Shown here: positions 36,989-39,020 of the stretch, in pieces
How the letters are laid out: the number at the start of each line of letters is the position of its first letter
Numbering within the stretch: position 1 is the first letter of the stretch
Origin: Deltaproteobacteria bacterium
GTDB lineage: Bacteria > Desulfobacterota > Deferrimicrobia > Deferrimicrobiales > Deferrimicrobiaceae
Length of the DNA stretch: 41,007 nucleotides
Direction of reading: 5' to 3'
Assembly: GCA_020346465.1 (NCBI GenBank)
Contig: CP070783.1
Span: 1,255,005-1,296,011, forward strand
Notes under the pieces: model-generated
What the model saw: the letters and a program-made list of their open reading frames with translations, nothing else
The model's database searches: none
What the model was told of the DNA's origin: nothing
Made by a program: the position numbers and the translations under genes

Positions 36989-37417
36989 ATGAAGAAACTG
37001 GTGGCGATAACGGTTGCAGCGGCAGTTCTGGCGGTGGCCCCTTTTCCCGCCGCGGCCGGGGATGCGGAGTGGGCGACGGCCGGGAAGATCCTGACGGGGA
37101 TCATCGGCGTGACGATTCTCGGGAACGCGATTGCGGGCGCCCATTACCACCCGGCGCCCGTCTACGCCCCCCCTCCGCGGGTCTATTACCCCCCCGAGGA
37201 GGTGTGGGTCCCGGGACGCTACGAGACAAGGATCGAAAGGCGGTGGGTCCCCGGTCATTGGGAGATCGAGCGTCGGGGGCACGGGTACGGAGACGATTAC
37301 AAAAGACGGTACGGAGGCAACGGGAAACACCGGGGCCGGAGCATCTGGGTCCCCGGGTATTACCGGGACGTCGAGGTAACCGTGTGGATTCCCGGCCGCT
37401 GGGAGGTGCGCGGGTAA
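36989..37417 (+). CDS. Secreted protein with four W-[VI]-P-G-x-[YW] repeats
   Basis: The 142-residue protein has a signal peptide (MKKLVAITVAAAVLAVAPFPAAAGD), a short hydrophobic stretch (KILTGIIGVTILGNAIAG) and a mature region with four motifs: VWVPGRYE, RWVPGHWE, IWVPGYYR and VWIPGRWE. These resemble the aromatic YXWGXW-type repeats of small envelope proteins. A Pro/Tyr-rich linker precedes them and a basic Gly-rich loop separates the middle ones. GAAGGAGGCGAGG precedes the ATG. It is the last gene before the strong terminator and may belong to the ECF sigma unit. Function is unknown. Confidence 0.78.
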   Translation: MKKLVAITVAAAVLAVAPFPAAAGDAEWATAGKILTGIIGVTILGNAIAGAHYHPAPVYAPPPRVYYPPEEVWVPGRYETRIERRWVPGHWEIERRGHGYGDDYKRRYGGNGKHRGRSIWVPGYYRDVEVTVWIPGRWEVRG

Positions 37418-37463: not shown

Positions 37464-37499
37464 CCCCCCGGGGGCTTTCCCCCCCGGGGGGTTTTTTTT
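37464..37499 (+). terminator. Strong intrinsic terminator
   Basis: CCCCCCGGGGG (37464-37474) pairs perfectly with CCCCCGGGGGG (37481-37491) around a 6-base loop and is followed by eight T (37492-37499). It closes the long plus-strand run that begins with the ccsA-like gene. Confidence 0.93.
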
Positions 37500-37520: not shown

Positions 37521-37526
37521 TATGAT
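37521..37526 (+). promoter_or_regulatory. Candidate -10 element before the AbiJ/HEPN-like gene
   Basis: TATGAT is five of six to the -10 consensus and is placed just after the terminator and 20 bases before the ATG at 37546. No convincing -35 is seen. Confidence 0.3.
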
Positions 37527-37545: not shown

Positions 37546-38349
37546 ATGGGGGATGGCGGCGGCGGGGCGGGGACACCGCTTCGGAACTCGCTCTGGAATC
37601 TGCTGTACCGGGTCGTTTCCGGAACCGATCATTCCGGAACCGCGTGGGGGGCGATCCTGCGGGGCGCCTGCCTTGCGTTCTTCAAGGAGACGATCGACGA
37701 CCTGCCGGTCTCCGACAACGAGGCGTCGCGCCGTGCCCTGAAAGAGGCCTTTTTCGGGCTTCCGGACCACAGGGTCTACGACCTCTTCGAATTCCTTCTC
37801 ACGGGTGAGAGGGCCGGAATGAAGGAGGTGGACCGGAAGCTCCTTCGACGCGGCCTGAACAGGGTTCTCGAAGAGGAGGGCGCGACGGTCCGGCTTCTGC
37901 GCGACCGGTTCGTGCCCCTCCCCGACGGGATCGGCCTGGATTCCGTGGAGACGGCCCGGCAAACGCTCTCCCTGTTCGATCAGGACGCCGCCGCACGGCA
38001 TCTGGAGGCGGCCGTCGGTTTCCTCTCGCGCCGTCCCGATCCCGCGCCGAAGGAGGCCGTCCGCGAGGCCGTGATCGCGGTGGCGGCCGTCGTGCATACC
38101 CTTGCCGGCGGGCCGGCCGGGGTCGCGATGGGTACGGTTGCGCCCGTCGCCCGCAAGCTCGGGATCCCGCCGGAGCTGCAAGGGGGAATCGACTCGATGC
38201 TCTCCCGCTGCCATGCCGCAAGCGGATTGCCGGGGGGCGGAACCGCCGATGTCCCCGTCGACTTCGCCGAGGCGGCATGCCTCGTCGTCTTCTGCTCTTC
38301 GGTCATCAACCTGCTCCTCTCCCGGGCGGGAGGGAAGGCAGGGGGATAG
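37546..38349 (+). CDS. AbiJ N-terminal/HEPN-like protein, divergent
   Basis: The 267-residue soluble protein starts with LRNSLWNLLYRVVSG, like the AbiJ_NTD4 type LRNxLWNxLY. The middle reads GLNRVLEEEGATVRLLRDRFVPL, and the C-terminal helical part has HLEAAVGFLSRRPDPAPKEAVREAVIAVAAVVHTLAG and later AACLVVFCSSVINLLL. The order matches proteins of the AbiJ/HEPN type found in phage-defence and stress loci. Where those usually carry a GGIRH-like R-x-H ribonuclease motif, this protein has SGLPGGG, so it may lack nuclease activity. This assignment is from pattern memory and is tentative. ATG at 37546 follows GGGAGG with an 8-base spacer; an ATG at 37522 overlaps a candidate -10. Confidence 0.5.
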   Translation: MGDGGGGAGTPLRNSLWNLLYRVVSGTDHSGTAWGAILRGACLAFFKETIDDLPVSDNEASRRALKEAFFGLPDHRVYDLFEFLLTGERAGMKEVDRKLLRRGLNRVLEEEGATVRLLRDRFVPLPDGIGLDSVETARQTLSLFDQDAAARHLEAAVGFLSRRPDPAPKEAVREAVIAVAAVVHTLAGGPAGVAMGTVAPVARKLGIPPELQGGIDSMLSRCHAASGLPGGGTADVPVDFAEAACLVVFCSSVINLLLSRAGGKAGG

Positions 38350-38356
38350 GCCGGCC

Positions 38357-38941
38357 CTACAGCCGGGAAAGACGGGGAGGGGTGCCGGCCGGGTCCCGCC
38401 TGCGCAACAGGGCGTTTACGACCTGATCGCCGGAACCGACGATTTCCACCAGTGCGAGGTTTTGGCGGGAGACCATGCGCTGGTTCTCCGCGTTGAGAAA
38501 GTAGGAAAGGATCGGGTCGAACCAGCCGCCGGTGTTGGCCACGACGATCGGCTTCGCGTGCAGACCGAGCTGCTTCCACGTGAGGATCTCGAAGAACTCG
38601 TCCATCGTTCCGAATCCGCCCGGGAGGACCGCAAAGGCGTCCGCCCTCCGGCTCATCTCGATCTTCCTCTCGTGCATCGATTGCGTGACGATCATCTCCG
38701 TGAGGCCTTCGTGGGCGAGCTCCTCCGTGCGCAGGAACGTCGGGATGACGCCGATGACCTCCCCCCCCCGGCCCAGGATCCGGTCTGCCAGGATTCCCAT
38801 GAGGCCCACCGACCCACCCCCGTAGATCAGCGTGATCTTCTCCTCGGCCATCCGGTCGGCGAGGGCGATCGCGTCCTTCCGGAAATGCTCCGGAACCAGG
38901 TTGCTCGAACTGCAGAACACGCACAGGGCAAGATTTCCCAT
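38357..38941 (-). CDS. LOG-family nucleotide 5'-monophosphate phosphoribohydrolase (TIGR00730)
   Basis: The 194-residue Rossmann-fold protein has the LOG signature PGGFGTMDE (107-115) and the upstream basic HERK (90-93), both needed to release adenine-type bases from nucleotide 5'-monophosphates. The N-terminus LCVFCSSSN and [12 protein letters not shown] (38-49) match the cytokinin-activating LOG family; in bacteria the role is nucleotide turnover, and the label lysine decarboxylase is a known misannotation. Length is typical. ATG at 38941 is chosen over 38998, which would add residues outside the family. It is convergent with the AbiJ-like gene (7 bases apart) and divergent from cysK. Confidence 0.93.
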
Positions 38942-38991
38942 CCAGCAAAGATACAGCCAAACCCGGGAAATGGGAAGCGGGGAAAATCGTG

Positions 38992-39020
38992 TTGACACGG
39001 CCGGGGAGATTAAATACTAT
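38992..39020 (+). promoter_or_regulatory. Sigma-70 promoter of cysK with overlapping direct repeat
   Basis: TTGACA (38992-38997), exactly 17 bases, and TACTAT (39015-39020) form the best promoter in the window. The direct repeat ATTAAATAC occurs at about 39009-39017 and again 11 bases later (39020-39028), overlapping the -10 and start site, a plausible operator position. Confidence 0.75.

Follow-up and report, generated by a model that had tools for sequence, protein, structure and literature searches.

Introduction

The closest described relatives of the protein examined here belong to PDC-S32, which PADLOC lists as a candidate phage-defence family only, and in which an N-terminal AbiJ_NTD4 domain precedes a C-terminal HEPN domain. 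Defence genes usually turn over fast, and HEPN domains are often dimeric. Canonical PDC-S32 members are found on viral contigs, on a plasmid and elsewhere; they begin with an FSxRxG sequence, carry a GIRH motif and the glutamate of a SISAVE sequence, and have the HEPN domain as their conserved part. AbiJ proteins with an AbiJ-NTD4 domain likewise end in a HEPN domain, and Rx4-6H is given as conserved in AbiJ in Table 1 of Anantharaman et al. (2013; PMC3710099). That paper proposes that HEPN domains entirely devoid of conserved charged or polar residues bind nucleic acids, with RNA binding proposed for a subset of MtlR and for the HEPN domain of Swt1, and that AbiV and AF0298-type HEPN proteins have alternative active sites with a conserved histidine N-terminal to the usual motif (PMC3710099).

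Here we describe a gene of this kinship, referred to below as the pseudo-HEPN gene, in a stretch of DNA of 41,007 nucleotides (the window). Its product shares nearly full-length homology and the identical two-domain order with PDC-S32, and resembles AbiJ in its related N-terminal domain and C-terminal HEPN domain. Unlike canonical PDC-S32 members, the pseudo-HEPN clade lacks FSxRxG, GIRH and the SISAVE glutamate, occupies one fixed locus, and has the N-terminal domain as its better-conserved part; unlike AbiJ, it is without Rx4-6H. A HEPN fold devoid of the catalytic motif is a feature in common with the motif-less MtlR subset and Swt1, but these belong to other families and contexts, and no AbiJ_NTD4 domain is stated for them in the corresponding sections of PMC3710099. 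Among the titles and beginnings of abstracts listed by literature searches there was no account of this clade, no paper on PDC-S32, and no description of a ligand of an AbiJ_NTD4-type domain.

Results

The gene and its expression signals

The open reading frame occupies positions 37546–38349 of the forward strand, with an ATG at 37546 and a stop codon ending at 38349, and encodes a product of 267 amino acids. Its GTDB family comprises 24 genomes, 13 of which contain homologues with 55–96% identity; a chance reading frame is thereby ruled out, and this is a genuine gene. In the copy of genome G022 one TAA was listed inside the matched stretch, yet the frame is open over the homologous part.

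The original prediction described the reading frame as standing alone behind a strong terminator. A terminator scan confirmed an intrinsic terminator at 37464–37491 (forward strand), and comparison of genomes with the gene (carriers) and genomes without it (non-carriers) showed similar hairpin-plus-T-run sequences at the equivalent position in carriers and in some non-carriers, e.g. G003 and G007; for this reason we assign the terminator to the upstream gene. A GGGAGG ribosome-binding site lies eight bases 5' of the ATG, and a −10-like TATGAT was read by inspection at 37521–37526 on the same strand. Because these two elements precede the ATG, the pseudo-HEPN gene probably has a short promoter of its own. 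In several carriers TATAAT/TATCCT-type boxes can be seen by eye between the terminator and the start codon; the TATGAT sequence was not among the predictions of a promoter scan.

Family membership and the N-terminal domain

When the protein was compared with the PADLOC profiles, residues 11–261 matched positions 31–281 of the 285 positions of PDC-S32 (E 4.5e-31), i.e. nearly the whole length. The N-terminal domain (residues 11–137; 37576–37956, forward strand) matched Pfam AbiJ_NTD4 (PF18863) from profile position 24 onward with E 3e-6 and 28.2 bits, below the gathering cut-off of 34. At E <= 0.1, AbiJ_NTD4 was matched by 11 of 12 clade members (best 6.9e-9) and by all 20 canonical viral-contig rows; the same 20 rows all matched PDC-S32, and three of them Abi_C (E <= 0.1). 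A profile-profile comparison of the 12 clade members with these 20 relatives gave a probability of 99.8 and an E-value of 4.8e-29 over 249 columns. The resemblance to AbiJ N-terminal-domain proteins noticed in the original prediction was thus upheld. An NCBIfam profile search with the protein gave no match, and searches of its sequence for relatives of solved structure gave none that was credible (best E 0.7, and 0.28 in a second search).

The phenylalanine, arginine and glycine of FSxRxG are invariant in 20/20 canonical rows of the alignment (A5) and missing from the clade N-termini; the DNA upstream consists of the terminator and the start region.

The predicted HEPN fold

The protein was modelled with AlphaFold2 from an alignment of 23 rows (three clade members and 20 canonical relatives), giving a pLDDT of 84.8 and a pTM of 0.79. 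Residues 142–265 of the model (37969–38340, forward strand) were superposed by VIA-align 2 on six best chains that were all of HEPN type (1o3u, 1wol, 1ufb, 2hsb, 3mfn and 3o10), with Z scores of 9.4–11.0 over 105–116 residues and an rmsd of 2.7–3.7. Next came Las1, also a HEPN protein (Z 6.2), and the first unrelated chain had a Z of 5.9. For a helical bundle, Z scores of 9.4–11.0 alone are no proof; since they agree with the profile evidence and the best structural matches of the canonical model are likewise HEPN proteins, we accept that residues 142–265 are predicted to adopt the HEPN fold. Foldseek searches of PDB and BFVD gave nothing at E <= 0.001 with either the pseudo-HEPN or the canonical model; this, and the 20 canonical rows among the 23 used for modelling, count against the reading favoured below. 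Profile searching and structure prediction could each have contradicted the original prediction, and neither did.

In a separate observation, the AbiJ_NTD4 domain of a canonical relative (L088:1-831; model residues 25–128) showed weak structural matches to death-fold domains, namely PYD 5h7q (Z 7.1), DED 8yd7 (Z 5.1) and CARD 1cww (Z 4.4), which may reflect a mere common helical arrangement of the modelled domain.

Loss of the catalytic residues

In the pseudo-HEPN protein the region expected to hold the Arg-x-His motif reads SGLPGGG (residues 226–232; 38221–38241), as had been pointed out in the original prediction. The alignment of this stretch with the motif region of canonical relatives, where Gly-Ile-Arg-His is found, is free of gaps, so that the degenerate GLPG (residues 227–230; 38224–38235, forward strand) stands opposite GIRH, with Pro229 opposite the arginine and Gly230 opposite the histidine. 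Arg-His is present in all 42 relatives inspected outside the clade, which comprise 34 viral-contig loci, seven loci of the same phylum (L034-L040) and one plasmid gene; the viral-contig loci had been retrieved by patterns in two regions, GIRH not being among them.

Residues were counted in an alignment with 30 canonical rows and 13 from the clade, from which 12 of the 42 canonical sequences were excluded: L089, L090, L100, L106, L107, L110, L111, L113, L114 and L115 from viral contigs as near-copies or as having a partial or other N-terminus, and L038 and L040 because they were divergent or partial. The canonical arginine (30/30 canonical rows) is proline in 13/13 clade members, the canonical histidine (30/30) is replaced by glycine, valine or methionine in 13/13, and the SISAVE glutamate (30/30) is alanine in 13/13. 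The dead-looking motif of the original prediction is thus supported. In its place Gly-Leu-Pro is invariant (SGLP, 13/13), and Glu174 (13/13) and His152 are retained. As a point against the favoured reading, the family's own GIRH differs from the textbook Rx4-6H, so that calling the motif 'dead' is here a statement about conservation and not about chemistry.

The protein might still be an RNase whose active site has been relocated to residues that are invariant, or nearly so, in the clade. His223 (codon 38212–38214, forward strand) is present in 13/13 clade members and is serine, asparagine or cysteine in the 30 canonical rows, and it could form a candidate site together with Arg221 (12/13) and Glu174. 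Its place N-terminal to the usual motif, compared in sequence position only, is that of the conserved histidine of the alternative sites proposed for AbiV and AF0298-type HEPN proteins (PMC3710099), and AF0298 (2hsb), with a Z of 10.0, is one of the six best chains in the fold comparison. Against this stands the tyrosine in place of Arg221 in genome G001, and, more generally, the distribution of constraint described below.

Selection and domain constraint

The dN/dS ratio of the pseudo-HEPN gene was 0.116–0.353 in seven pairs, similar to that of its neighbours (0.065–0.442, without one rpoE pair of 0.737 at a dS of 0.02). The reading that the gene is a decaying relic without function would accommodate the lost active-site residues and the clean absence of the gene from several genomes, but not so easily these ratios, the retention of open frames across 55–96% identity or the invariance of SGLP in 13/13 members. 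The selection data, as read from the aligned genes, disfavour it, and we give it hardly any credence.

In 77 of 78 clade pairs the N-terminal domain was the better conserved of the two, and in 435 of 435 canonical pairs it was the HEPN domain (N-terminal domain 0/435), the pairs within each set overlapping and thus not being mutually independent. The dN/dS of the N-terminal domain was also below that of the HEPN domain in eight of nine clade pairs. This inversion is the strongest indication that the nuclease part escaped its former constraint while the protein remained useful. A HEPN domain that evolves faster than its N-terminal partner, the opposite of what is seen in every canonical pair, is not what a relocated active site would lead one to expect, and we consider such a site unlikely.

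A fixed locus with vertical inheritance

Within the limits of each contig, the same neighbours flank the gene in 13/13 carriers. On the upstream side are polA, rpoE, an anti-sigma gene, a hypothetical gene and the gene for a WVPG-repeat protein, and on the downstream side LOG, cysK and ubiE (cysK was not found in G020). In the window the upstream neighbour (36989–37417, forward strand) encodes a small secreted-type protein that we named for its WVPG repeats, there being no significant Pfam match, and the convergent downstream neighbour (38357–38998, reverse strand) belongs to the LOG or 'lysine decarboxylase' family (PF03641). The original prediction had placed the gene next to housekeeping genes, and neighbours of this type proved to be fixed in all carriers.

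Among the 11 family genomes in which the search gave no match, six (of the 24) have the two direct neighbours with an empty site in between, and G013 holds the last 22 residues of the gene at a contig edge. The other four have no readable empty site: in G004 the flanks lie on different contigs, in G008 the contig ends, in G014 LOG and rpoE were not found, and in G021 LOG and the upstream neighbour were not found. When 395 genomes of the phylum were searched with a clade profile, members of the clade type came from this family only; the matches in seven other genomes were all of the canonical type. All clade members fall into one group with full support (100/100), whose long stem measures 2.86 changes per column. 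Its gene tree broadly matches a tree of the neighbours, which is not independent because it was built from the same locus; in one conflict, G005 groups with G016 in one tree and with G006 in the other. According to these trees the gene was lost at least twice within the window's own genus, and this patchy presence makes a case against an essential role.

The original prediction had also raised the possibility that the protein antagonizes an active HEPN protein. A search of the 24 family genomes with the canonical profile found only the pseudo-HEPN gene and no active paralogue, and antagonism within the same genome was rejected as an explanation; since no canonical member was found in these genomes, antagonism of an active HEPN is unlikely. 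The gene's housekeeping-type neighbours, moreover, are shared with non-carriers. A related proposal is that the protein is a dominant-negative antidote, which would pair with active PDC-S32 proteins introduced by prophages or plasmids and so give dead heterodimers. The dimeric habit of HEPN domains and the occurrence of canonical relatives on viral contigs (34 loci) and a plasmid would suit this idea, but the identity to the viral-contig relatives is only about 15–26%, leaving little shared interface, and, again, no canonical member was found in the 24 family genomes. We regard the antidote as very improbable.

The protein could, alternatively, defend against phages without a nuclease, either as a sensor acting via another effector or by blocking phages directly. 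Its origin in a candidate defence family, the patchy losses that resemble those of a defence gene and the conserved N-terminal domain are in keeping with such a role. A search for a conserved partner gene, a check proposed with the original prediction, returned only direct neighbours that non-carriers keep as well, and no conserved defence partner was seen in the loci read. The fixed position among housekeeping-type genes, the neighbour-like dN/dS and an N-terminal domain that evolves fast in canonical relatives and slowly in the clade also speak against nuclease-free defence, which we judge to be no likelier than a relocated active site.

A defence-derived protein with a probable cellular role

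The explanation that we favour, and hold to be reasonably probable, is that the gene encodes a defence-derived, vertically inherited and domesticated pseudo-HEPN protein that acts without cutting and has an endogenous regulatory role. The comparison shows the kinship, the predicted fold, the lost residues, the synteny, the selection and the inverted constraint of the domains; the lack of RNase activity, the binding mechanism and the cellular role are inferences. A PDC-S32/AbiJ_NTD4-HEPN candidate defence gene would have been captured at one chromosomal site in an ancestor of this uncultured family. The captured copy would have been stripped of FSxRxG at its N-terminus and of the predicted catalytic residues (Arg, His and Glu) of the HEPN domain. 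Since then purifying selection would have maintained it through vertical descent, with several losses along the way. The HEPN fold would most likely serve as a non-cutting scaffold for dimerisation and for RNA or protein binding, and the well-conserved N-terminal domain would most likely be the working part, binding a ligand or partner in endogenous regulation. The domestication suggested in the original prediction accordingly gains support from the fixed locus (13/13), a dN/dS of 0.12–0.35 and the loss of residues in 13/13 members. A non-nucleolytic endogenous role is likely, its molecular function being a proposal drawn from the comparison; a role as a sensor, also contained in the original prediction, is possible, the N-terminal domain being the better conserved part.

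More tentatively, we put forward a narrower version, which could well be right or wrong: a prophage-type abortive-infection RNase may have become a fixed non-nucleolytic cellular regulator, with the HEPN domain as its scaffold and the former phage-sensing domain as its conserved working part. If this were true, the locus would offer a readable example of the passage from defence to housekeeping, and also a means of approaching the binding targets of AbiJ_NTD4 domains. In contrast to the usual fast turnover of defence genes, a toxin-like fold of defence origin is retained here at a single locus, with constraint inverted between the domains of the protein. Were the role cellular, the conserved N-terminal domain would be a stable target in the search for AbiJ_NTD4-type ligands.

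Insertions at the locus

Extra genes separate the WVPG-repeat gene from the pseudo-HEPN gene in G020 and G023. The interval in G023 (L023:8464-10324) contains a gene for an AbiEii toxin (PF08843, E 1.7e-16), an adjoining reading frame that has no Pfam match and stands in the usual antitoxin position, and a dipeptidase gene; that in G020 (L025:8527-9075) holds an outer-membrane beta-barrel gene (PF13505). This interval tolerates insertions. In G004 (L073:746-2754), one of the genomes in which the gene search gave no match, TerC and AI-2E transporter genes are situated upstream of LOG, in the place where the pseudo-HEPN gene would be expected.
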